DNA of 64,000 bases from positions 7,665-71,664 of the IMG/VR virus record IMGVR_UViG_3300037963_003785; one strand, given 5' to 3'. Position 1 is the stretch's first letter; each line of letters opens with the position of its first letter. The stretch comes from a virus. A program made the translations under genes and the position numbers. Below, piece after piece: positions 2,353 to 49,536 of the stretch. A model generated the notes under the pieces. The model was not told the DNA's origin. It saw only the letters and a program-made list of their open reading frames with translations, and did not search any database.

Positions 2353-4662
2353 TTAATCCACCAATCCTTGTATAGAACTATCTACTTTTTTCATGTTTTT
2401 ATTTAACTCTTGTAATTGAAATAACATTTCAGCATCATTTACTCTTGTATTATCAGATTCAGTTGTTTGTAGTTGAATCAAGTCATCTAAATTATTTACA
2501 GGTGGTTGTGAGTTTGATTGAATAGATGCCTGTTCTTTGGCTATAGATACATCCCTTGCAACATTTATTGCATCAATTGCAAGAGATGCTGCCGTACCCT
2601 TACCAGGTATAGTTGATGCAGCACCACTCAATAATTCAAGTCCAGCTCCTTTAAAATCACCACCCATAGCTCTGTCAATTGCAAAACCTACTCCCAACAC
2701 AGCACCAATTAATGGTATTTTGGATAATACCCTTTTACCGAGACTTCTCTTTACTACTTGCTCAGTAATTTCTTCAGTAGCCTCTTTTTTTACTGTATTC
2801 TTGAGAGCCTGTTCAGCAACTTCTTTGGATACCTCTTTAGTTGCCATTTTAGCTCCACCCTCGACTACCTTTTTACCAGCTATTTTCGAAAATGCTTTAC
2901 TTGCCCCTTTTCCAACTACAAGAAGAGCTGCAGTTGTAGCTGCAGTACCAATCATATTACCTAAATCACTTCGTAAGAAAGCTCCTAACTTTAATAAAGT
3001 ACCACCAGCTAAATCATCACCTTTCAATACATCCGAAAGGTCAAGGGTTTGGGCTGCAATAGCATCCACAAGAGATTTTGTTTGTCTTGTAAAGTTTTCT
3101 GTCTCTTCGGTTTGACCTGGCATCTTACCACTAGCATCCGCTACTTGTCTACCACCAACCAATCTACTTAATTCACCTACATCGACACCAATCGATTCTG
3201 CCAATGCTCTTTTTGCAAATACATTCAGTTTTTCAAACTCTGCTCTACCACCAAGCTGTTTAACAACTGATTGAGTTGCACCCTCTATATCACCAGTAAA
3301 TGCTAACTCACGTGCCTTATTGAAGTTTAATTGTCTACCAATTAATAATGAGGCCTCTAATTCTTTTTCTATGGATGACTGAAAATCTAATAAACTATTT
3401 GATATCTTTGCAGTGGTACTTAGGGATACTCCTAATCTTCTTGCCTGTATTGCTGCACCCGCCAAGTTAGCACCACCATCTTTTGAAAACTCTGCAAACT
3501 CTGCCGTTGCATCAGCCAAATCTTTCATGACCATTGATGGTGCAACATTATTTAGTTCTGCTAACGTACCGACTGCTGTAACAACGTTTTGTGCAGTTTC
3601 TAATGAAGTACCACCTACAAGAGCAAACTCATTTACTAACTTAGCTGCCTCGTCATTTGCAATCCCAAACCTACCAGCAATAGCGGTTATATTGACTGCT
3701 GAGGCTGCTAGGTTTTCTGGTATAAAACCCAAGTCATCTACTAAAGCCACACCTACTTGTTGTATGTCTTCCAGACCTTTTCCAAATAGTTTTAAATCTA
3801 CGCCAGATTCCTTAAGTGACGAAGTAATAGATTTCATACTACCGACAATCTTATCTGCACTACCAAAACTAACACCAAGTGCATCTCTTGTCTCAACAAA
3901 TGGTGTTAATAATTTTGAAACCGTATCTACCAATTGTTTAGCAATTACTAAAGCAACACCTAATTTTGCAGTAAATCCTACTGCACCAGAACCCAAGACT
4001 TTGAACTTAGCAATCATTTCTTGAACACCTTGATTCATATTGTCGATGGTGTCTTCACCCTCTTTCATTGCATCCACCGCATCTTGTCCTAAATCTGCTT
4101 TTGCTTTTTCAAATCTAACAGCTTGTTTAAGAGTACCAACATATTGTTTTGCAAATTTAGAATTTACTCTTTGAGCCTCTACAAGTTTTTCTTCTAAATC
4201 TAATATTTGTGATGATGTTAATATTTCATCTCGACTTACTTGTAATAATTGTTCAGTAATATCAAGTTGTGCTAACTTACCTTTTGTTTCATTGGATACT
4301 GATTTCGTTCTACCAGCCGCTCGTTTAGCCTGTGCAGTTTCTACGTCAACAATTAACTTTCTTATAGCTAAACCATCACCTAATATCTTGGTCTCAGATG
4401 CAGCACCTTTTGCCAAGTCTTCAATAGTACCGAACCGTTCCCTTGCGTTCTTTGTCATCTCCTTTTCGACTTCGAGAATGGAACGTGCTGATTTTATATT
4501 TTCTTTAAGGTAATCTAATTGTTTTTGGTCGAATTGAGCATTCTGACGTTTAAGTTTTGCAATCTCATCAAATTGTTGTTTTATTTTTGTTGCAAATTCT
4601 ACATCTTTCGCTGAATAAGTACCATCCGCCTTTTTAGAAAATCCTTTAGGTTCTCTCGCCAT
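2353..4662 (-). CDS. Tail tape measure protein
   Basis: A 769-residue protein predicted to span the tail lumen and set tail length. Residues 1 to about 215 are charged and coiled-coil-like (many K, E, Q). A hydrophobic segment follows near 228-250. A long helical middle part of the TP901 core type comes next (ALVDDLGF, GGTSLETAQN), then two more hydrophobic stretches near 575-590 (TAATTAALLVVGKG) and 650-670 (IPLIGAVLGVGFAID), and a helical C-terminus. Alternation of coiled coil with membrane-like segments is typical of tape measures. At roughly 1.5 angstrom per residue the tail would be about 110-115 nm (inference). It follows the gp26-type chaperone gene, the usual position. Confidence 0.85.
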   Translation of the reverse strand: MAREPKGFSKKADGTYSAKDVEFATKIKQQFDEIAKLKRQNAQFDQKQLDYLKENIKSARSILEVEKEMTKNARERFGTIEDLAKGAASETKILGDGLAIRKLIVDVETAQAKRAAGRTKSVSNETKGKLAQLDITEQLLQVSRDEILTSSQILDLEEKLVEAQRVNSKFAKQYVGTLKQAVRFEKAKADLGQDAVDAMKEGEDTIDNMNQGVQEMIAKFKVLGSGAVGFTAKLGVALVIAKQLVDTVSKLLTPFVETRDALGVSFGSADKIVGSMKSITSSLKESGVDLKLFGKGLEDIQQVGVALVDDLGFIPENLAASAVNITAIAGRFGIANDEAAKLVNEFALVGGTSLETAQNVVTAVGTLAELNNVAPSMVMKDLADATAEFAEFSKDGGANLAGAAIQARRLGVSLSTTAKISNSLLDFQSSIEKELEASLLIGRQLNFNKARELAFTGDIEGATQSVVKQLGGRAEFEKLNVFAKRALAESIGVDVGELSRLVGGRQVADASGKMPGQTEETENFTRQTKSLVDAIAAQTLDLSDVLKGDDLAGGTLLKLGAFLRSDLGNMIGTAATTAALLVVGKGASKAFSKIAGKKVVEGGAKMATKEVSKEVAEQALKNTVKKEATEEITEQVVKRSLGKRVLSKIPLIGAVLGVGFAIDRAMGGDFKGAGLELLSGAASTIPGKGTAASLAIDAINVARDVSIAKEQASIQSNSQPPVNNLDDLIQLQTTESDNTRVNDAEMLFQLQELNKNMKKVDSSIQGLVD

Positions 4663-4687
4663 TGGCTAAGCTCCGAGTTGTACTTTA

Positions 4688-4912
4688 TTAAGGTAATGTT
4701 TTCATTATTCTGTCATACTCTGCGTCTGACATATTAGAACGAGTGGTCTTCTCAAGTTTATCGTAGGATTTAATGAAGTCTGCTAATGCATCCTTTACTT
4801 TTGGATTCTTTTTGATTTGTTGAACACTCTTAGCAAAGCGTTTTCTATTAGCCTTCTTTAAAGAGTTGGTTACTTTTTGTAAAAGTTTTTCTGCAAAGCC
4901 TTCATTTAACAT
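4688..4912 (-). CDS. Small basic protein between tail chaperone and tape measure
   Basis: A 74-residue lysine/arginine-rich helical protein (MLNEGFAEKLLQKVTNSLKK at the N-terminus) with no recognised family. The ATG at 4912 is preceded by GGAG at a suitable distance, and an ATATTTAT box lies 27 bases upstream of the start. Position between the frameshifted gp26-type gene and the tape measure suggests a tail-assembly role, but nothing in the sequence proves it. Confidence 0.65.
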   Translation of the reverse strand: MLNEGFAEKLLQKVTNSLKKANRKRFAKSVQQIKKNPKVKDALADFIKSYDKLEKTTRSNMSDAEYDRIMKTLP

Positions 4913-21295: not shown

Positions 21296-22951
21296 TTACA
21301 CTTTATCAACGTCAGCGACAACGACAGTACCGTAGAACTCAGGTCTTACGATTTTCTTCGCGTAACGAGTCATCACACCTTTACGTGGAGTAAAGTTGGT
21401 TGGGTCGTATACGAGAGGTGTCATAATCAACGGAACATAAGGACTATACACAGCACCAGTTTCAAGGAAGTTACTTCCTCTGAAACCAACAAGAATTACA
21501 TTCTCGAATTGGTATGGGTTCTTGTAAACAGTAAATCTGTTGTTCAAGAGACCTGCTTTTTGTACACCCATTGCATACTGTTGATTGTTGGAATCACCAT
21601 TACTATCAGTTGCATATCCAGGAATAGATTCAAGGATTGTAGCAACTTCAGGACTTACTACGATGAAGTTTGCACCACCACGTAGGGTCTTCTGATGAAT
21701 CGCGTTAGACACAGATTGTATCTTGTTACCAAGTGTTTGGAACCAAGTTCCTTTCACGTAGGCATTAGATTGACCAGATGATTCTACAAAAGAACCACCA
21801 TCCCATTCATATCCAACCTTTGCTGACCATTTTTCTTCTTTAGCGTTAGCATTTAAACGAATCATGTCAAGGATTTCTAAGTCGATTTCCATTGCGATGT
21901 ATTCTGATAACATAGAAGTCAATTCAGCTTCTGCATCAACTGAGTGATAAGCATTAAGGTCTTGAGCTAACTCAGGAGTCCATACTGCTTTTAACTTACG
22001 AGTTTTTGCAACAATTGGAATTGAACGCATCTGAATATCAATTTCAGGTATTCCGACATCTCCCTCACCAGAGAAACCACCATCGGTAGCAGCTGCTGGA
22101 GAAGACTCGAAATCACCACGAGTGATATCAGTTGGTTGTTTATGGTACTTAACGGTGTAGGTTACATCACCTGCAGGGCCGTTAGCGTCAAACGTTGTTG
22201 TAGAGTCTGGTGCCACAATAAACTGAATGTGTGTACCAGCCGCTGGGTTTGAAGTACCATCGGAATCTACCCTCTTAGTGTAAGCAGGATAGTAAGTAGA
22301 AAGTGAACCACTACCAGAACCACTAATTGAAAATGCTCTCGCACCATTCAAATCAGCAGCTGATAATTCACTATGTGCGAATCTTAAGAAACGTAGTGAT
22401 GATAGAGAACCACTCAATGATGGTTCGAAATCAATCATAGCGTTTGTTGCTGATCCAGAAGTCGCTGTAGTTGTAGTTGCACTTACGTCATTTATGGAAT
22501 ATCCGAATTTACCTGCTCCATAAAGACCACCACTTGGGTCACCAGAAGAAGAAGTGTTACCAAACACGTCTGCTCTTTGAGTGTGACCAGGTTGAGCTGA
22601 ACCATACTTGAAATCAAGATAGAAGATTAGTCCAGATGGTAAGTTCATAGGCTGTACAGAAACGAATTCCTGTGAAGCTAATGAACCAAAGATTCTACGA
22701 ATTAATGGAAGTGCAACACCGCTCCACTCTTCAGAGTTAGCAGTTGTAGACACTTTAGAAGCCTCATCAATTAACTGACGAGCCTGATTTTCCAATAGTG
22801 TAGCCATACCATGTTTTCTGTTCTCCTCATCTATACCTTCTAAAAGGCCAGTAGGTTCCCATTTCTCAACAAGTTTCTTGGTCTGTTCACGAAGCTCTCT
22901 TTGCGGATTATATCCATCCATGATATTTTGGATTTCATTATAATTGCTCAT
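21296..22951 (-). CDS. 23: Major capsid protein (gp23-like)
   Basis: A 551-residue homologue of T4 gp23 (521). The opening helices and LVEKWEPTGLLEGI, followed by LPLIRRIFGSL and VSVQPMNLPSGLIFYL, match the T4 pattern (VRRAIPNL, GVQPMNSPTG). In T4 the first 65 residues are removed by the gp21 protease; here LIDE at 60-63 is a good candidate cleavage site. A Gly/Ser/Thr-rich surface insertion spans about residues 115-260. The C-terminus GVMTRYAKKIVRPEFYGTVV is typical. It is preceded by the scaffold gene (19-base gap) and followed by a strong terminator, as expected for the most abundant virion protein. Confidence 0.95.
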   Translation of the reverse strand: MSNYNEIQNIMDGYNPQRELREQTKKLVEKWEPTGLLEGIDEENRKHGMATLLENQARQLIDEASKVSTTANSEEWSGVALPLIRRIFGSLASQEFVSVQPMNLPSGLIFYLDFKYGSAQPGHTQRADVFGNTSSSGDPSGGLYGAGKFGYSINDVSATTTTATSGSATNAMIDFEPSLSGSLSSLRFLRFAHSELSAADLNGARAFSISGSGSGSLSTYYPAYTKRVDSDGTSNPAAGTHIQFIVAPDSTTTFDANGPAGDVTYTVKYHKQPTDITRGDFESSPAAATDGGFSGEGDVGIPEIDIQMRSIPIVAKTRKLKAVWTPELAQDLNAYHSVDAEAELTSMLSEYIAMEIDLEILDMIRLNANAKEEKWSAKVGYEWDGGSFVESSGQSNAYVKGTWFQTLGNKIQSVSNAIHQKTLRGGANFIVVSPEVATILESIPGYATDSNGDSNNQQYAMGVQKAGLLNNRFTVYKNPYQFENVILVGFRGSNFLETGAVYSPYVPLIMTPLVYDPTNFTPRKGVMTRYAKKIVRPEFYGTVVVADVDKV

Positions 22952-22970: not shown

Positions 22971-24170
22971 TTAAAGAATATTAGCCAACTTCTTAAATCT
23001 ATCTCTCAACGCACTACCCTCTTGAATTACTTCTTTAGGTTTTTGAGTTGATGCGACAGCTTTAGAAGCTGAACCTTTACTCTCGTTAACGGTTTCATTT
23101 TTCTTAGCACCAAATGATTCAGCCAAAGTTGAATATACCAACTTGACTTCTCTTAAATTTGCTGCTCTGTCGAAAGTTTCAACAACTTTCAATTTCTGTT
23201 CGTTGTTAAGACCATAAGCCCTAAACAACTTATTGCTGAATAGCAACTTAGCGTTAAGAAGATTAACTTCGTTTAATTTACCACGAAGATACTTAACCAC
23301 ATCTCTGTGTTCTTCTAACTCTTTACTTAGCTCTTCAACACGATTGTCCTGCTCTTCAACTTCTTCCTCTTCAGATAGTGCAGATAGGATTTCATCTAAG
23401 TCAATGTCTTCTTCAACATCTTCTTCAACGTCTTCGTTTTCTTTTAACTTAGCTTTTCCTACTGAACCAATACCAGAAGATTTGTCAGCTGCACCTTTCT
23501 TGTTATCACCTGAACCGATACCAGAAGAATGGTCAACTTCTTCGTCAACTTCTTCATTCTTTTCATCGTCTTCATCTTCCTCATTTACTGATTCATCTTT
23601 CTTTTCGTCATCTTCATGTTCGCCTTCAGAAACGGATTCGTCTTTTTCGTCTTCCTCTTCTTCATTGATGTCAGCTTCTAATTCAGCAAGAACGGCTTCC
23701 AAGTCAAGGTCTTCATCTACATCGTCTTCTTTGTCTTCGTGTTCACCTTCTTCAACTGATTCATCTTTTTCTTCTTCGTCTTCTTCTTCAGTTTTAAGAG
23801 GTGCATACTTGACACCATCGATTTCAATGATTTCTGATTCATCAACTTCATCATCGCCTCTTTCTTCGACTTCTTTATCTTCAGGTTCCATCTCTTCAGA
23901 GTGGTCGTCTGATGGGTCTTCGTCATCGGCATTGATTTTCATTCTTTCCTCAGGATCCTCGTCATCACCATGCATAGCTTCATCTTTTTCATCGTCTTCC
24001 ATTCTTTCTTCTACATCTTCTTCTTCTTCCATCTCAGCTTGAATTTTCTGTGACAACATTGACTTTAATCGTGGAGTAAATGCTTCTTCAAGAGCCACTT
24101 TAGCGTTTGCTAGTGCAGTTTCACGAACTGCTTTTGCGTCAGCAATAGCGTCTTTTAATAAGTCATCCAT
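22971..24170 (-). CDS. 22: Prohead core scaffold protein (gp22-like)
   Basis: A 399-residue, extremely acidic protein that would form the inner core around which the capsid assembles and which is then degraded. The N-terminus (DAIADAKAVRETALANAKV) and C-terminal helical part (NAKLLFSNKLFRAYGLNNEQ, LREVKLVYSTLAESFG) carry the conserved signal; the middle 200 residues are mostly E and D. It has internal repeats: KDESVxEGEHED twice plus KDESVNEEDEDD, SSGIGS twice, and DLDLEAVLAELEADI/DIDLDEILSALSEEE. Start chosen at ATG 24170, which has GGAG six bases upstream; the ATG at 24182 has none. Confidence 0.9.
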   Translation of the reverse strand: MDDLLKDAIADAKAVRETALANAKVALEEAFTPRLKSMLSQKIQAEMEEEEDVEERMEDDEKDEAMHGDDEDPEERMKINADDEDPSDDHSEEMEPEDKEVEERGDDEVDESEIIEIDGVKYAPLKTEEEDEEEKDESVEEGEHEDKEDDVDEDLDLEAVLAELEADINEEEEDEKDESVSEGEHEDDEKKDESVNEEDEDDEKNEEVDEEVDHSSGIGSGDNKKGAADKSSGIGSVGKAKLKENEDVEEDVEEDIDLDEILSALSEEEEVEEQDNRVEELSKELEEHRDVVKYLRGKLNEVNLLNAKLLFSNKLFRAYGLNNEQKLKVVETFDRAANLREVKLVYSTLAESFGAKKNETVNESKGSASKAVASTQKPKEVIQEGSALRDRFKKLANIL

Positions 24171-24251
24171 TTTATTCTCCATATTTTGGATTTGGATTTA
24201 GTAATGTTATTAGAAACATTAATGTGATTATTGGTCGTCTTGACCATTCGG

Positions 24252-24287
24252 TACGACATAAGTGGGGCTCAAATGAGCAATGTCGTA
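24252..24287. other. Structured inverted-repeat element upstream of scaffold gene
   Basis: TACGACAT (24252-24259) and ATGTCGTA (24280-24287) are perfect inverted repeats that enclose a second small inverted repeat GCTCA/TGAGC (24267-24278). The core AAGTGGGGCTCAAATGAG also occurs, as AAGTGGGCTCAAATGAG, at 10638-10671 on the other strand. It lies in the 146-base leader of the scaffold gene, downstream of an ATATTTAT box. No U tract follows, so it does not look like a terminator. Confidence 0.55.
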
Positions 24288-24298
24288 TTCTTGTTTAT

Positions 24299-24306
24299 AT
24301 AAATAT
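24299..24306 (-). promoter_or_regulatory. ATATTTAT box upstream of scaffold-capsid operon
   Basis: Sense strand reads GTATATATTTATATAAAC, 128 bases before the scaffold start. The long leader between contains the structured element at 24252-24287. Confidence 0.4.
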
Positions 24307-24316
24307 ATACAAACAG

Positions 24317-24526
24317 TTAAAAACGTGAGTTTTCACGTGAAATTCTTCTTGATTTCTCTCGTGCAATACCCTTTTTCTTTGCTTCTCTTCTCAAGGTAGA
24401 TGGTTTTGTATAAAACTCTCTCTGTTTGAGTTCGAATAACATATTTGAGTCTTTAACTTTTTTCTTAAAACGTGATATAAGTCTTTCTACAGACTCGTTT
24501 TTTTTCTTTGTAACTTGTATACCCAA
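24317..24526 (-). CDS. rpsU: Ribosomal protein bS21 homologue
   Basis: A 69-residue basic protein matching bacterial bS21: NESVERLISRFKKKV (family NExxExxLRRFKRxV), then FELKQREFYTKPSTLRR (family ExRxREYYEKPSxxRK) and a Lys/Arg-rich tail AKKKGIAREKSRR. bS21 sits on the 30S platform near the anti-Shine-Dalgarno end of 16S rRNA and aids initiation. Phage-encoded bS21 is known in marine phages and could bias host ribosomes to phage mRNA. Start is TTG at 24526, directly after the upstream stop, with GAGG five bases before; no ATG is available. It lies between a core-like protein gene and the scaffold gene. Confidence 0.9.
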   Translation of the reverse strand: MGIQVTKKKNESVERLISRFKKKVKDSNMLFELKQREFYTKPSTLRREAKKKGIAREKSRRISRENSRF

Positions 24527-25225
24527 TTAGTCCTCTTCGTTTTTTCCTTTATAGTTAGCGTCTACATAATTGAAGAATTTTTTCTTTTCCTCATCATCTA
24601 ATTCTGCAGGTGATTTAATACCAAACTTCTTCATAGCCTTTTGAAAGAACTCTTCGTAGTCCCCCTCATCTATATTGTATTCACCAATCTTGGTTTCTTT
24701 TTCTTTTTCAGGTGTCATTGCATCATCTTGGTCATGACCACGAACGTGTCCTTCAGGTATCTCATAATATCTACCAATGATGTGTGCCATATCTTCATAT
24801 ACAGCACTCATTCTTTCTTGTAGTCCTTGTGCCTCCTGTGCAAATTTACCAAATGATTTTGAGAGTGTAGTTAACTCTTTCATGTTACGACCAACAGTTA
24901 CTTTGTCAAACCAATCCTCTGTCTCACGAATTGTATTTTCTTTAACACCATTAGCTAATTCAGATAATGATTTTGCAACATCTCTTAAATTACCCTCTCT
25001 GTAAATTAATTTACCAAGATTGTTAAAGTTGGATAGGTTTTCATTAAAAGCTTTTTTATCAAATTTATCTTCATTTTTATGTCCGTAGATATCTTCTACT
25101 ATATCAGATAAATTAGAATTGTTATTATGTAATGGTGAAGTACCACCGATAGCGGATATACCAACAACACCACCAATTGCTTCGTTTACTAAATCTTTTA
25201 ATTTAATGTTTTTCTTCTTTGACAT
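24527..25225 (-). CDS. Head-module protein, possible prohead core component
   Basis: A 232-residue protein without a recognised enzymatic motif. It opens MSKKKNIKLKDLVNEAIGG, an amphipathic helix with a VNE sequence that also occurs in other head-module proteins here and may be a prohead protease site. The middle is helical (ENLSNFNNLGKLIYREGN, LSKSFGKFAQEAQGLQERM), and the C-terminus has an acidic linker and the compact segment SPAELDDEEKKKFFNYVDAN. It ends flush with bS21. Location between protease and scaffold genes suggests an internal head or core protein. Confidence 0.7.
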   Translation of the reverse strand: MSKKKNIKLKDLVNEAIGGVVGISAIGGTSPLHNNNSNLSDIVEDIYGHKNEDKFDKKAFNENLSNFNNLGKLIYREGNLRDVAKSLSELANGVKENTIRETEDWFDKVTVGRNMKELTTLSKSFGKFAQEAQGLQERMSAVYEDMAHIIGRYYEIPEGHVRGHDQDDAMTPEKEKETKIGEYNIDEGDYEEFFQKAMKKFGIKSPAELDDEEKKKFFNYVDANYKGKNEED

Positions 25226-25255: not shown

Positions 25256-25795
25256 TTATCTACGTTTTTTACCACGAAGATAACTTCTAAATCTTTTTTC
25301 TACTTTTCTCCAAAGGACTTGTAACATCTCTCTAACACCAACACTTGTATCCATAGCTGGGCCAGATTTTATTCCTCTGATTAAATCCATTGCATCGTAT
25401 CTACCACCCTTTACACCATTCATCATAATCTTGATACTTTTTGCAGATGCCTGATTGATAAGTTTCCCCATATCTCTGACATCTTTTTCTACAAACTTTT
25501 GTGCTTCCGTTGAACTAAAAGGAAGTTGTGATGGTGAATTAAGAGGTGCCTCTGTTAATTCAGAATTTAAAATGTAATCACGTGCCTTGTTTAGTCTATC
25601 AGAAGACTCTATTACTTTACCCATCCACCATGTTGGTAACTCTATATCACCAACACTTTCGAGTTTTTGAATAATCTCTTGACAATCCTCTATCGAAGTT
25701 TTTAACTTTCTAATAGCAGACGGAACATCTTCATGTCCATCTTCTGTCAATAAATTTTCTAAGTAAATATCTTTAATCACTTTAATAAAGTCCAA
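25256..25795 (-). CDS. Head-module helical protein
   Basis: A 179-residue protein with the N-terminal helix MDFIKVIKDIYLENLLTEDG, a helical segment KTSIEDCQEIIQKLES, then LPTWWMGKVIESSDRLNKA, a pattern (paired Trp followed by a helix ending in ARDYIL) that I have seen in head-region proteins of marine T4-like phages. The C-terminus is strongly basic (KRFRSYLRGKKRR), which would suit DNA binding inside the head. It overlaps the upstream gene by 19 bases. No catalytic motif; function unknown. Confidence 0.7.
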   Translation of the reverse strand: MDFIKVIKDIYLENLLTEDGHEDVPSAIRKLKTSIEDCQEIIQKLESVGDIELPTWWMGKVIESSDRLNKARDYILNSELTEAPLNSPSQLPFSSTEAQKFVEKDVRDMGKLINQASAKSIKIMMNGVKGGRYDAMDLIRGIKSGPAMDTSVGVREMLQVLWRKVEKRFRSYLRGKKRR

Positions 25796-26232
25796 TCTTG
25801 TGGATTTGAATAACGTGATTTATAATACCATTTCTTTTCTTTCATATTATATATGTAAGCGTATTCCTCACCAGAATTAAAATCAACTGCATCTCTATTC
25901 TTAAAAGTACTCATCGCACTTCCCTTTTCACCTCTGTCTCTTCCGTAGAATACTGTCTCACCATCTTTTCTATTATCAAAGGAATGGTCTTTTCCACCTT
26001 TTATACTTTTGTCTAAAAATGAAATACCTTGTTTTCCAAGTTTCATCAATTGTTTTACGATAGCAGGTTTATTATAAATTTTCTTTAACAATTTACCTGT
26101 GTGTTGTGGATACCCATCATAATGTCCATAGGTGGATTGAATTTTACCATTTGGTTGTTCAATACCAACTAACCAACGAGTTCCTTCTGTAACTAATACA
26201 GATTCTTTTACTAAATTTTTTAATTTAATCAT
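25777..26232 (-). CDS. Head-module hypothetical protein
   Basis: A 151-residue protein. Start chosen at ATG 26232, one base after the upstream stop, giving MIKLKNLVKESVLVTEG; a longer frame to 26313 would overlap the neighbour and lacks support. The N-terminal helix plus ESVLVTEG resembles the start of other head-module proteins here. The rest is basic and aromatic (VGIEQPNGKIQSTYGHYDGY, EEYAYIYNMKEKKWYYKSRY), suggesting a small beta domain. No family recognised. Context suggests an internal head protein. Confidence 0.65.
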   Translation of the reverse strand: MIKLKNLVKESVLVTEGTRWLVGIEQPNGKIQSTYGHYDGYPQHTGKLLKKIYNKPAIVKQLMKLGKQGISFLDKSIKGGKDHSFDNRKDGETVFYGRDRGEKGSAMSTFKNRDAVDFNSGEEYAYIYNMKEKKWYYKSRYSNPQDWTLLK

Positions 26233-26233
26233 T

Positions 26234-28030
26234 TTATCTTCCCATAGTACCAAGACTTGTATACATTCCAGTATGCTTGGTAAACATTTTTTGTAATTGG
26301 TCGTTATAAACACCTTTTACTTTTGATTTAACTTTTAACTTTCCAGCTCTCATCTGAATAAATTCCATATTATATAGGTCTTTACCTCTATCTAAATCTA
26401 TTCTAACATAATTTACACCTTTGGAATTTCTACCAATCTTAAAACTCATTCCTTTAGGCCCCACTGCAAAGTTTTTTGCTCCAGTCATAGCGATAAATTT
26501 ATTACCACCTAATTGTTTTAAGGTTTCACCACCTTGTCTCTTATTCATTGACTCTCTGTAAACTATCTTACCCACTTTAGATTCTATGCCAATGACGTGG
26601 TTTGGATACTTATCTCTCAAATCAGACATTTCTGCTGGTATCTCTTTTAGATTTTTTACAAGTACTCTTTTTACTACCTTATTGTTTTTACTTACAATGA
26701 TGTCCCAAGGCCCAACTTTAGGCCCTTTACGAACAGATTTCATCATATTAGAAGTTTTACTTTCATTTTTCTTTTTTAAAAGGTGAGGCCCAGCTGGTTC
26801 ATCTCCTAATTTACCATCCTCACCATAACCACAAGTTCCTTCATTTTGTGCCCACAATGAATTCATTATCTGTGCTTTCTTTGCTGGATTAGCCTTTTTG
26901 TACATTTTAGAAACTCTACCATACCATTTCATTATACCTTTGGTATCTTTTTTATTGTTACCGTATTTTAAAAGTAACTTTTCAATCTTTTTTTGTTCAG
27001 ATTCTTGTACGGATTCTAACCCTAACATATCTGCAGCAACTACAAAGTTTGTCTTATCACCCTTTGATTTATCCAATTTAATTATTCTTACTCTTTTCAA
27101 ATGTTTCTTTAACAATGTAGCTAATTTTTTTGATTCCTTTTCATCGTCCATGAAAAAACTAAAAGCACCTTTACCTGTAGCCATATCTTTTACCGATTTT
27201 AATTTCTCAGACTTAACAATACTTTTCATTAAAGACTTCATTCTATCATGTACAGAAACTTCGTTTACGGATTCTTTAACTACTTTATACTTACCCTTTA
27301 AAACATTATCTAATTGACTTTGTGAATTTGCAAATACTAAATCAAGTCGTTTAGTAACTGGCATCGTTCTTCCATTTGGAATCTCAGGTACCATTTTAGA
27401 CTTAATAACACCACCGATTGCATCTATGTATTGTCTTGTTCCTCTATCAGCTGTTTTTTTAGAACCTTGTAAACCTTTTTGATTATATCTTTTTGTAATT
27501 TTTAACTTATTTGCTAATTTTTGTGATAAGTTTCTACCAACTTCTGATTTGAATATTTTATCTGCGGTTGTAACAAGTAAACCAGGATGACCAAGATTAC
27601 GTGGATTGAATCGTGGTTGTTTACCAGTAAATTGTCTACCTGTCTTTGAAACTAAAGCAACATAGATATCTTCTGCAATTGTGTATCCTGTAGAATTAGT
27701 TGATATCTTTTTTTCTTTTTCTTTATCTTTTTTACGTTTCTTTTTAGTAGACTGAAATGCATAAGGTGTTTTAGGTGGGCCTTCACCACCATCAAGATTT
27801 CCTGTTACAGAGGCCTCAGGTACCATTTTATACCCTAATACTTCTGCATTCTTTTTTCTTTCTGTTTCAAATTTTCTTTTTGCAGCACCTTTAAGTTCAC
27901 CACCAAAACCCTCTTTTAATTCTTCATCAAGGTCTTCTTCTTTAAATGGAACAAAAGAATGTGCATAAGGATTACTTACGACTCTACTCATTTCACCTAT
28001 ATTCTTTGGTAAGAAATCCTTTAGGTTCAT
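26234..28030 (-). CDS. Large multi-segment basic head-module protein
   Basis: A 598-residue, lysine-rich protein built from several segments: a basic N-terminal region (KKKRKKDKEKEKK near 105), a middle region with KESVNEVSVHDRM, the segment CGYGEDGKLGDEPAGPHLL near 415, a small domain GPWDIIVSKNNKVVKRVLVK near 445, and a C-terminal domain (GGNKFIAMTGAKNF, INYV-like VNYVRIDLDRGKDLYNMEF, then QLQKMFTKHTGMYTSL). The last two look like small phage proteins that are often found alone, so this appears to be a fusion. It lies next to the protease gene and has VNE-type sites, so an internal core role is plausible. Function unknown. Confidence 0.7.
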   Translation of the reverse strand: MNLKDFLPKNIGEMSRVVSNPYAHSFVPFKEEDLDEELKEGFGGELKGAAKRKFETERKKNAEVLGYKMVPEASVTGNLDGGEGPPKTPYAFQSTKKKRKKDKEKEKKISTNSTGYTIAEDIYVALVSKTGRQFTGKQPRFNPRNLGHPGLLVTTADKIFKSEVGRNLSQKLANKLKITKRYNQKGLQGSKKTADRGTRQYIDAIGGVIKSKMVPEIPNGRTMPVTKRLDLVFANSQSQLDNVLKGKYKVVKESVNEVSVHDRMKSLMKSIVKSEKLKSVKDMATGKGAFSFFMDDEKESKKLATLLKKHLKRVRIIKLDKSKGDKTNFVVAADMLGLESVQESEQKKIEKLLLKYGNNKKDTKGIMKWYGRVSKMYKKANPAKKAQIMNSLWAQNEGTCGYGEDGKLGDEPAGPHLLKKKNESKTSNMMKSVRKGPKVGPWDIIVSKNNKVVKRVLVKNLKEIPAEMSDLRDKYPNHVIGIESKVGKIVYRESMNKRQGGETLKQLGGNKFIAMTGAKNFAVGPKGMSFKIGRNSKGVNYVRIDLDRGKDLYNMEFIQMRAGKLKVKSKVKGVYNDQLQKMFTKHTGMYTSLGTMGR

Positions 28031-28641
28031 TAGTCTTCTCTAAGAATAGAATGTATTATGTGTTCTGCCTTACCCCACTTATCATTACTAATACTTTCTT
28101 TTACAACACCCTCATTTACAGGATGTAAAAAAGCACCATGAGTAGACGGATTAGATACAAAGTCAAATGCAATTAACTCAAAGTCATCTCCAACTTTTTG
28201 TGCTCCTTTGTCTGGCCCCTCATTAACAGTTTCAACAGAACCCATACCACGAGAACTGATACCTAATTTAATACCAGCCTTAAATAATTCTTTTAATATG
28301 TTACCTGCAGGTGTACCAACCACTTCTACAGTTCCCAATAAATTGTCACCCTCCCAATGCATTTCTTTGACATTATGAGAAACGTTCTGTAAGTTTACTA
28401 CAGAAGAATCTGGATGGTCTAATTCACCTAAAGCTCTTTTTTGACGAATAAAGTTTTCATCATACTCTTTGGCTTCACGTTGTAAAATTTCTCTTGGATA
28501 CACACGACCATTTTGATTCTTAGCTTCTGCTCTCTGTAACACTCCACGAACAATTAACTTACCATTATTACTTTTCATGGATTCATTAATTTGTTCAGGT
28601 GATACCTCAAATGGTATGTAGTCTACAATTAATTGTTTCAT
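28030..28641 (-). CDS. 21: Prohead core protease (gp21-like serine protease)
   Basis: A 203-residue homologue of T4 gp21, the protease that matures scaffold and capsid proteins inside the prohead. The fold's catalytic residues are visible: His76 in GELDHP and Ser129/Ser130 in LGISSRGMGS; AEAKNQNGRVYPREIL near 38-53 is also conserved. Start chosen at ATG 28641 (MKQLIVDYIP), one base after the upstream stop, because an upstream start would overlap the neighbour with non-conserved residues. T4 gp21 cuts after (L/I)xE-type sites; VNEG occurs twice in this protein itself. It lies between core-protein genes and the portal. Confidence 0.92.
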   Translation of the reverse strand: MKQLIVDYIPFEVSPEQINESMKSNNGKLIVRGVLQRAEAKNQNGRVYPREILQREAKEYDENFIRQKRALGELDHPDSSVVNLQNVSHNVKEMHWEGDNLLGTVEVVGTPAGNILKELFKAGIKLGISSRGMGSVETVNEGPDKGAQKVGDDFELIAFDFVSNPSTHGAFLHPVNEGVVKESISNDKWGKAEHIIHSILRED

Positions 28642-28642
28642 A

Positions 28643-29575
28643 TTATTTAGCCTTCTTTGCAGCTGCCACAGCATCTCTCATAAATGTTGTGACACCTTTT
28701 TTATATTTCTTTTGTAATTCACTTCCTAATTCTTTATTACCTTTTGTTGGGTCAAGATAAAGAGCCTGTACCATTTCATACATTGCTAATCTCAGTCTTG
28801 ATTCTTCTCTCATCAGTACCTTTAACTTAGCTTTGACTTTTTTTACATCATCTGGCCCTTCTGAAATCTTTTGTTGATGTTTTCTCTTAACATCTGCTAG
28901 TGTAGGTAATGGTTCACCAAATTTTCTCTTCTTATCAAAGTTTTCATTTACAGATTCTCTTACACCCTTACCACCCATTTCTTTGTAAACTTTTATTAGA
29001 TTTTTAAGGTGGTCTTCATCTCTAGCATTAGTAACTCTACCTTGTTTCTTTATTCTCTTTTGAAACATTTCTATAGCATCTTTGAGTTTTTTCAATTCTA
29101 CTTTATTAGATAAAGTGCGTTTATATGCCATACCGACATTATCTCTTTCATTTACAGATTCACCAGTATATTGTTTTTTATAAAAGTCTACATCAGCTTT
29201 TGATTGTTTTTTAGGTTTGTCTTTCTTTCTTGAGAGTTTATCCTTGATTCTTTGGAAAAGACTCTTAGATTTTTTATGTAACGGGTGAGATTTGTCCCTT
29301 AGAGGTGTTGAAGCCTTAACACTTTTACCTGTTTTTGGATTTTTCATCTGCATCTTGGTCATTTGCATCACAGTTGCAGCAACAATTGGATTCTCTGATA
29401 GAATACTCTCTAAATTCTTATGTTTTGTAGAAGCATATTTCTTCACGTCTTTCCTTTTCATGTTTTTTGCTACATCTTGAGCTTTTTTAGAAAACTTAGA
29501 TGCTGGTTGTTCCCCTTTTTGTATTGAACGTACAATACCCATAAATTTCTGTTGTTTTTTAGAAACAGATGGCAT
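28643..29575 (-). CDS. Basic head-module protein with DUF3008-like N-terminus
   Basis: A 310-residue, highly basic protein. The first 40 residues (VSKKQQKFMGIVRSIQKGE, then KFSKKAQDVAKNMKRK) match the small DUF3008 family found alone in many bacteria and phages. The rest is lysine-rich helix with the sequences GESVNERD and RESVNENF, candidate protease sites, and a helical C-terminus (MREESRLRLAMYEMVQALY). It overlaps the next gene as TAATG, so translation is coupled. Its charge and place beside the protease suggest a DNA-binding or core protein packaged in the head; this is inference. Confidence 0.7.
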   Translation of the reverse strand: MPSVSKKQQKFMGIVRSIQKGEQPASKFSKKAQDVAKNMKRKDVKKYASTKHKNLESILSENPIVAATVMQMTKMQMKNPKTGKSVKASTPLRDKSHPLHKKSKSLFQRIKDKLSRKKDKPKKQSKADVDFYKKQYTGESVNERDNVGMAYKRTLSNKVELKKLKDAIEMFQKRIKKQGRVTNARDEDHLKNLIKVYKEMGGKGVRESVNENFDKKRKFGEPLPTLADVKRKHQQKISEGPDDVKKVKAKLKVLMREESRLRLAMYEMVQALYLDPTKGNKELGSELQKKYKKGVTTFMRDAVAAAKKAK

Positions 29576-30718: not shown

Positions 30719-30759
30719 GTCTTACTCACTCCAATTATAAAAAGTGTAAATTCTCTTAT

Positions 30760-30767
30760 ATAAATAT
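30760..30767 (-). promoter_or_regulatory. ATATTTAT box upstream of core/protease genes
   Basis: Sense strand reads TTTTTATATTTATATAAG, 41 bases before the ATG at 30718, in the gap after the portal stop. Confidence 0.4.
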
Positions 30768-30787
30768 AAAAACTTCATAAAAATAAT

Positions 30788-32647
30788 CTATTCCTTACCT
30801 TTTATTGTACTGACATCATCATGATATTCTTGATTAACTTCATCTGACTCTGTTATTATCTTTACATCACTTTTGTTCATTAATTTTTTCATCTTATCAA
30901 AGTGGGCAAGTGCTAAAGTATTTCCATATTTACGTGAACCACTACCACCTTTTTTCTTATCGTGAGCTCCTAATACGTCTCTACCCCTTACACCACTATC
31001 TTTACCATACTTATTAGGTTCTTTAGGTCTACCAGCTCCCTCTTGTCCACCTTCAGGTGCTCCACCCTCATCATCAAAGACGGAACCACTAACATCATCG
31101 TCCCCACCTTCATCATCAGGACTTTGCATATCACTTGGTGTACCTACCGATTCTCCACTTTGTTTAGGGTCATTACCCTCGTTCTCTATCTGAGAATATC
31201 TAAACTTTTGTTTATAGTCATATACAATTTTTTCTTCTTGGTCTTCTATTTCATCCTTAGTAAAATTATATATGTTCTTATAAATCCAATCACTTGACAT
31301 CAATCCATCTTGTATCATAGAAGAAGCAAGTGATGTCTTGTTGTTCCATAATTCAATTTTTTCTTGTTCATAAATTGTAGATGGATTTGTAAGACTCAAT
31401 TCAAAGTTGACCAACTCTTCATCAGTAAAACCTTGTGCATATAAATGAACAATAGCAATCTTAGTCAACTCACTTACAACAATCCTTTGTATTCTTTCAA
31501 TTGTTCTCGCAAACCTAACGTCTTCAGCAGCTAATGTAGCCTTACTTCCAACTTGTTCTTCATATCCAAGAAAGGCCTTGGGTACTTTAAGAGCAGCTAA
31601 CATTTTATTTCTAAGATATTCAATATCATCAACTGCATCGTATGATAAACTACCAAGAGTTTCTATGTTTGTACCACTATCCCCACCTCGAACTGGCATG
31701 AAGAAGTCTTCTGTTATGTTTTGAATGTTATATTTTAAATTATAATCACCAGTTGTTTCATCTACCAAAGGTGTTTTCTTCATCTTATTAATAATTTGTT
31801 GCATGTAATTATCAACTTCTGCTGGTGGTATGTTTCCAATATCAACTTTGAACACTCTTTTTTCAGGTGCTCTCATAATCCTATGAATCATCATAGCATC
31901 TTCCATAAGAGATAATTGTTTCCAAATCTTTCTAGCAGATTCTATCATTGATTTACCATAAGGAACATAGTTTGAATCTGATAGTAATCTGAAATGTGCC
32001 ATTTGAAAGTTTTCTAATTCTGCACTTTCAGTTTCTTTTCGTGTATGATAAGCAGCCTGTCCTGTATTATCTTGTGTAATTACAAACTTAACTTCGTATG
32101 GATTTTCAGGATTACCACCCTCTGCACGTGCAACAATATAAGGTGTTAATGGTGTTACGTTTGTTACACCATACTTGTCTTGTACATCTAAGTGTAAAAA
32201 GAAATCACCATACTTACACATATTACGAACCCACGGCCATAAATTAAATTCGATGTTTAATATATCATAAAACAAATTATGTAATATCTTTTTAACGTTA
32301 TCATTATCACTTTGAATTTCCAATACTTCTCCGTATTCGTTTTTCATTGTGGTCTCGTCCGAATAGACATCAAGTGCTGATGCTATGATTGGGTCTGAAT
32401 CCATAGTCTCGTAATCTCTGAATAGACCTAACCTCTCAGCCTGTTTATAGGTAGAATCCATTAGACCATATCCTGAACCCTTTGAGTTCTGATACAATCG
32501 TGTGAATCTATCGGTTAAACTTTTCTTATAATATCCTTGTAACTTTTCGGTGTCAGCTATTTTTAATTGGCGACCACCAACATTTCGTACAATAACATTT
32601 GTACTGAATAGTCTTCTTAGTCTTCCAAATAATGTTTTATCTGCCAT
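30788..32647 (-). CDS. 20: Portal protein (gp20-like)
   Basis: A 619-residue homologue of T4 gp20 (524), the dodecameric ring through which DNA enters and leaves the head. Family features include an N-terminal YETMDSDPIIASALDVYSDE, WPWVRNMCKYGDFFLHLDV, SLMEDAMMIHRIMRAPEKRV, GGDSGTNIETLGSL and YLRNKMLAALKVPKAFLGYE. The last 120 residues are an acidic, glycine-rich tail (DDEGGDDDVSG, GGAPEGGQEGAGRP) beyond the T4 core, probably inside the head or on the clip. It directly follows the terminase gene with a nine-base gap. Confidence 0.95.
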   Translation of the reverse strand: MADKTLFGRLRRLFSTNVIVRNVGGRQLKIADTEKLQGYYKKSLTDRFTRLYQNSKGSGYGLMDSTYKQAERLGLFRDYETMDSDPIIASALDVYSDETTMKNEYGEVLEIQSDNDNVKKILHNLFYDILNIEFNLWPWVRNMCKYGDFFLHLDVQDKYGVTNVTPLTPYIVARAEGGNPENPYEVKFVITQDNTGQAAYHTRKETESAELENFQMAHFRLLSDSNYVPYGKSMIESARKIWKQLSLMEDAMMIHRIMRAPEKRVFKVDIGNIPPAEVDNYMQQIINKMKKTPLVDETTGDYNLKYNIQNITEDFFMPVRGGDSGTNIETLGSLSYDAVDDIEYLRNKMLAALKVPKAFLGYEEQVGSKATLAAEDVRFARTIERIQRIVVSELTKIAIVHLYAQGFTDEELVNFELSLTNPSTIYEQEKIELWNNKTSLASSMIQDGLMSSDWIYKNIYNFTKDEIEDQEEKIVYDYKQKFRYSQIENEGNDPKQSGESVGTPSDMQSPDDEGGDDDVSGSVFDDEGGAPEGGQEGAGRPKEPNKYGKDSGVRGRDVLGAHDKKKGGSGSRKYGNTLALAHFDKMKKLMNKSDVKIITESDEVNQEYHDDVSTIKGKE

Positions 32648-49533: not shown

Positions 49534-49536
49534 ATA

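Follow-up and report, generated by a model that had tools for sequence, protein, structure and literature searches.

The window (the whole 64,000-nucleotide stretch that was analysed, part of an 87.6 kb virus record from a T4-like phage with TerL, gp20 portal, gp21 protease, and gp23 capsid genes) contains a real, conserved phage gene for the ribosomal protein bS21, positioned among the head genes. In the reading that we favour, with a probability of roughly 0.7, this bS21 is probably made late in infection and would join the 30S subunit, replacing or topping up the host bS21 and keeping ribosomes fully active on the late mRNAs. The gene and its neighbours in the head locus are:

30788..32647, minus strand: portal, gp20-like (PF07230, E 2e-77)
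28030..28674, minus strand: prohead protease, gp21-like (PF03420, E 3e-28)
24527..25225, minus strand: upstream gene of 232 aa, ending in a stop that abuts the bS21 TTG; prohead-core-like N-terminus (NIKLKDLVNE); kept as the neighbour in relatives
24317..24526, minus strand: bS21 (rpsU-like) gene, 69 codons, TTG start, identified by HMM matches and by the best PDB matches of its AlphaFold model
22971..24182, minus strand: acidic gp22-like gene in the scaffold position (403-aa ORF), before the Gp23 gene
21296..22951, minus strand: major capsid protein (MCP) Gp23 (PF07068, E 1e-78)

The 69-aa product, read from 24526 to 24317 on the minus strand, is (M)GIQVTKKKNESVERLISRFKKKVKDSNMLFELKQREFYTKPSTLRREAKKKGIAREKSRRISRENSRF. 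The first-pass annotation had taken it for bS21, naming an HMM search as the check and the lack of a significant match as the outcome that would speak against it. The search returned significant bS21 matches, above the cut-offs, from three libraries: Pfam PF01165 (39.6 bits, cut-off 27, E 4e-10, model positions 2–49 of 55), NCBIfam TIGR00030 (35.6 bits, cut-off 28.95), and PHROG 21469 'ribosomal protein S21' (E 8.5e-11). Given these scores, together with the fold match, the identification is borne out. Sequence matches in the PDB were without exception to bS21 proteins, organellar forms included, with E. coli at E 2e-8 and F. johnsoniae at just E 0.004. The AlphaFold model (three helices, pLDDT 83) retrieved bS21 chains as its top three Foldseek matches (E 0.02–0.15), led by 8rd8 (probability 0.99, E 0.02) and with the E. 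coli bS21 of 4ybb at E 0.09; these E-values are modest because the protein is tiny. The core residues of bS21, including the invariant K21, K41, and P42, are kept, and the gene recurs with the same start in four IMG/VR contigs of this phage. The cellular bS21s of E. coli and F. johnsoniae share with it the Pfam family, the core motif, and the fold, but identity is 27–29% to the enterobacterial proteins and 23% to that of F. johnsoniae, and the cellular proteins fall outside the head-locus lineage described below. A chance or passenger ORF is ruled out by the HMM scores, by its presence in 52 of 53 relatives, and by dN/dS.

Conservation was assessed among relatives retrieved by their capsid protein alone, and thus without selection for bS21, 53 of which had enough upstream sequence. 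In 52 of these, bS21 lies ~1–1.4 kb before the MCP gene, on the same strand and upstream of the scaffold gene; the sole covered relative without it (L042, 8131-8712) has unrelated genes in the slot, one of them HNH-like by eye. Among all pooled loci having both genes, bS21 is found within 2.5 kb before the MCP gene on the same strand in 133 of 135, the two others being that of Microcystis phage Mel-JY01 (2.6 kb) and the window's own short locus; since some pooled loci were found via bS21 itself and the contigs are partly redundant, 52 of 53 is the fair figure. The gene is under purifying selection (dN/dS 0.06–0.15 in the more diverged pairs), and distances between bS21 proteins follow those between MCPs (rho 0.69; none of 500 permutations as high), which together indicates long joint inheritance. 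A single bS21 pattern matched 455 viral contigs. In this abundant group of marine phages, a ribosomal protein gene has thus become a near-universal part of the head locus.

A bS21 tree (67 columns, many forks unresolved) covered cellular Bacteroidota, E. coli, and phage bS21s. A branch with support 96/95 parts the head-locus set, the window's gene included, from the sampled cellular Bacteroidota, E. coli, and other phage bS21s. Pelagiphage bS21s form a cluster of their own, phage bS21s with an aromatic residue 54 (Bacteroidia-type) cluster with cellular Bacteroidia (support 99/94), and long branches are formed by LR756508, near the boundary, and by Mel-JY01, on the cellular side. Judged by this tree, the bS21 of the window appears to form a lineage with its head-locus relatives, apart from Bacteroidetes-phage, pelagiphage, and sampled cellular bS21s. 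The origin comparison suggested in the first-pass annotation, with SAR11, cyanobacteria, and Bacteroidetes, is thereby answered in part: the gene stands outside the sampled Bacteroidota, E. coli, and pelagiphage bS21s, and no derivation from SAR11 or Bacteroidetes is supported. Recent capture from a Bacteroidota host is unsupported, all sampled cellular sequences being placed across a supported branch. A bS21 match was present in 197 of 198 genomes drawn from Bacteroidota, MAG G006 matching via its two phage copies only, and the best cellular score among them was 58 bits; a scan of genome contigs for cellular donors yielded two bS21s from Bacteroidales, besides a phage contig binned in a MAG. 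The MAG G006 (Flavobacteriales, NZWA01) contains two contigs of the phage group (L249 and L288), and no cellular bS21 was found there. Two other candidates were discarded: the Klebsiella-phage bS21 (L009 = MK416018 and related records), flanked by tsaD and primase genes and no less than 99% identical to E. coli rpsU (best 100%), is host rpsU from the margin of a prophage or of the record, and the record behind a Salmonella 'phage' match is bacterial.

The placement of the gene between a core-like gene and the scaffold gene, also claimed in the first-pass annotation, stood: the upstream product has a T4-core-like N-terminus, and the downstream gene, whose true start is probably the ATG at 24170 behind GGAG, occupies the gp22 position. 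TerL, portal, protease, and MCP genes all lie within a few genes of bS21, which agrees with the co-location with head genes described by Chen et al. 2022 (PMC9723584). By TerL and portal (~54–56% identity), the nearest named phages are Flavobacterium phage immuto and Microcystis phage Mel-JY01, and no bS21 was found in the head locus of immuto. Several genes upstream of bS21 have in common an N-terminal KLKDLxxE motif (24527-25225, 25777-26313, and 3639-4704 of the related contig L288), which looks like the T4-type signal for capsid targeting and protease cleavage. The position of bS21 among prohead-core-like genes, together with the possibility of encapsidation raised by Chen et al. (PMC9723584), could suggest a basic prohead-core or injected protein with no ribosomal function. 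Nevertheless, the T4-like KLKDLxxE N-terminus is found on the upstream neighbours and not on bS21, which retains the bS21 core (K21, K41, and P42 included), and a virion role is therefore regarded as very improbable.

The presence of phage bS21 near head genes is already known from Mizuno et al. 2019, Chen et al. 2022, and Mel-JY01. Mizuno et al. described phage bS21 and the incorporation of HTVC008M bS21 into E. coli 70S ribosomes (PMC6375957), while Chen et al. located bS21 to the head region in Bacteroidetes phages, found it close to structural genes in 388 of 900 phages, and proposed preferential translation late in infection (PMC9723584); the idea that the protein steers ribosomes to phage mRNAs, put forward in the first-pass annotation, was thus already published. 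The present analysis adds the lineage, the residue-54 class, the strand, the start-codon pattern, and the leader, no description of which was found in the part of the literature searched. The RpsU of Mel-JY01 (PP395634) resembles that of the window in its strand and in its place between the protease side and a scaffold-position gene of a related head locus (TerL 55%, portal 56%), in a non-aromatic residue 54, and in the Shine–Dalgarno (SD)-rich genes of its phage, but it is very divergent (35% identity) and is separated from the scaffold-position gene by extra genes. The freshwater Bacteroidetes-phage bS21s of Chen et al. likewise occupy the TerL/portal/protease/MCP region and are expressed late, as we infer for the phage of the window. 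However, in those clades bS21 is on the strand opposite to the structural genes, whereas in the window and in 133 of the 135 pooled loci it shares the strand of the capsid gene; they have an aromatic residue at Tyr54, where the window has Ala55; and the aromatic-54 phages found here lack SDs, while genes of the window's phage are rich in SD motifs. The Pelagibacter phages HTVC008M and Mosig are similar to the window in their non-aromatic residue 54 and SD-bearing genes. Their bS21 genes, in contrast, adjoin AAA/CobS-like ATPase, hsp20, and replication genes instead of head genes, and the window's bS21 is not in their clade (branch support 96/95 on 67 columns).

The putative control signals around the gene are:

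30759..30768, minus strand: late-promoter-like motif TATATTTATA, which could start the transcription unit ending in bS21
24532..24535, minus strand: GAGG, SD-like motif, 5 nt before the bS21 TTG and within the last codons of the upstream gene
24298..24307, minus strand: late-promoter-like motif TATATTTATA, directly 3' of bS21, invariant in 25 relatives
24200..24287, minus strand: two-hairpin leader of the scaffold mRNA, covariance model match E 3e-7

The motif TATATTTATA, a variant of T4's TATAAATA, has four copies in the window, at 49534, 30768, 24307, and 21224 (minus strand). All four coding-strand copies in the window are intergenic, as are 11 of 11 in one relative and five of eight in another, and its reverse complement is never intergenic in the window or in two relatives. 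The covariance model of the leader was built on 22 sequences, the window among them (99% of alignment cells paired; changes on both sides in 10 of 15 pairs), and it gives a single match in the window and in each of two longer relatives; a search of Rfam with the leader gave no match above threshold. Leader-like hairpins are visible by eye in immuto, Mel-JY01, and LR756508, and are not scored by the model. The leader belongs to the scaffold gene and not to bS21, because L042 keeps it without having bS21. With the promoter-like motif and the leader placed ahead of the scaffold gene, the preceding late unit probably ends with bS21; a terminator-like hairpin occurs just 3' of bS21 in some relatives, and the scaffold and capsid genes probably have a promoter of their own. 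Thus, of the proposal that bS21 is made with the virion proteins from a head operon, likely late co-expression is supported, but a single operon is less probable, the motif and the leader parting bS21 from the scaffold gene.

The TTG start directly follows the upstream TAA (TAATTG), in agreement with the coupling noted previously, and the first in-frame ATG does not occur before residue 29. TTG or GTG starts were assigned to 54 of the 83 distinct bS21 genes with an assigned start; two GTG and no TTG were found among 98 recognisable MCP starts, and neither codon among the portal, TerL, and protease starts. An SD-like motif precedes bS21 in 65 of 84 distinct relatives. The idea of an exceptionally strong bS21 SD holds in one subclade, where it is the strongest of the contig, and was rejected for the window, where it is average (44% of genes have a stronger one). 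No more than translational coupling is needed to account for the abutting stop and TTG. Strong SDs are also paired with TTG in some cellular rpsU genes of the Bacteroidota phylum (L322, L325, and L326), and Flavobacterium rpsU is autoregulated through an extended SD (PMC9976891), so that autoregulation of the phage bS21 is possible by analogy.

According to the favoured reading, bS21 would be made late, at the 3' end of a unit carrying protease and prohead-core genes, by ribosomes that finish the upstream gene and restart at the abutting TTG. The basic helical protein would occupy the bS21 site of the 30S platform, next to the 3' tail of the 16S rRNA, as a substitute for host bS21 or a supplement to it, and the ribosomes would stay fully active, or become somewhat better, on phage late mRNAs, which are mostly SD-bearing. 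Incorporation into host ribosomes is likely by homology; binding to the 30S of the actual host is not guaranteed because the protein is divergent (27% identical to enterobacterial bS21). A preference for phage mRNA is a plausible hypothesis. In a rival reading there would be none, and the phage bS21 would simply top up a limiting, exchangeable host protein during a long infection, so that ageing or bS21-less ribosomes would keep initiating. bS21 is exchangeable and of the kind that viruses tend to encode (PMC6375957), Flavobacterium ribosomes without bS21 initiate worse on most mRNAs (PMC9976891), and the sequence bears no sign of mRNA selectivity. However, that the lineage has long evolved on its own suggests that its protein is not just a copy of that of the host, and supply without selectivity is considered possible but rather unlikely.

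In F. johnsoniae, Tyr54 of bS21 stacks on A1534 and helps to hide the anti-SD (PMC9976891; PMC9723584); the aligned residue in the window is Ala55, which is non-aromatic. Residue 54 was compared in the 85 distinct phage bS21s for which sufficient flanking DNA was available, being assigned by hand in seven loci. H, W, or Y occurs in eight of them, and SD motifs precede 0–18% of the genes of those phages; in the other 77 the residue is non-aromatic, and 76 of these 77 phages are above that range (median 63%), these fractions being rough because each gene was assumed to start at the ATG that gives the longest ORF. P values for this association overstate the evidence, because the eight aromatic cases represent few related lineages. 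The exception is LR756508 (L008 / L265), a huge phage without SD motifs, whose head-locus bS21 has Met at residue 54. Cellular genomes of the Bacteroidota phylum do not follow the rule strictly either, several of them having Arg there and few SDs. In the window, SD motifs precede about half of the genes, versus a background of ~8–10%, and in two longer relatives SDs exceed background in every segment, weakly in one. The residue-54 class tracks SD usage of the phage, which makes the behaviour of ribosomes with one or the other class on SD and SD-less mRNAs a concrete test of what phage bS21 does.

The simplest reading of this pattern is that the hosts of head-locus phages use SDs and that the bS21 of these phages matches them in this. 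A bolder one would posit two functional classes of phage bS21 matched to the mode of initiation, in which this lineage, lacking the aromatic residue 54, frees the anti-SD in a Bacteroidia-like host and so switches ribosomes that ignore SDs to the SD-bearing phage mRNAs. It accords with the alanine in the window, with the 77 of 85 non-aromatic proteins and the corresponding split in SD usage, and with the higher translation of strong-SD mRNAs seen in Flavobacterium when bS21 carries Y54A or lacks its C-terminus (PMC9976891); two contigs of the phage group were binned in a Flavobacteriales MAG, and the cultured relative immuto infects Flavobacterium. Nevertheless, immuto has neither SDs nor a head-locus bS21, Microcystis was the source of the other cultured relative, binning in a MAG is weak evidence of a host, and the aromatic residue is also missing from some cellular bS21s of the Bacteroidota phylum. 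The split between SD-less early and SD-rich late genes predicted by such unlocking was not seen in the two longer relatives, and the spread of SDs throughout them weakens it, since early genes would need them too. The switch is accordingly judged quite unlikely, and the reading of a late bS21 that maintains ribosome activity is preferred.

A search for tRNA genes as pointers to the host found none in the window or its ends, five in G001, and one, together with a tmRNA, in G002, a set that was uninformative about the host. The tmRNA gene of a related 165-kb phage contig (L279, 9378-9797) has the predicted tag VNDEPTYAYAA. Elsewhere in the window, positions 38500-61000 hold a large sugar/polysaccharide cluster that includes nucleotide-sugar epimerases, an aminotransferase, and a carbamoyltransferase.
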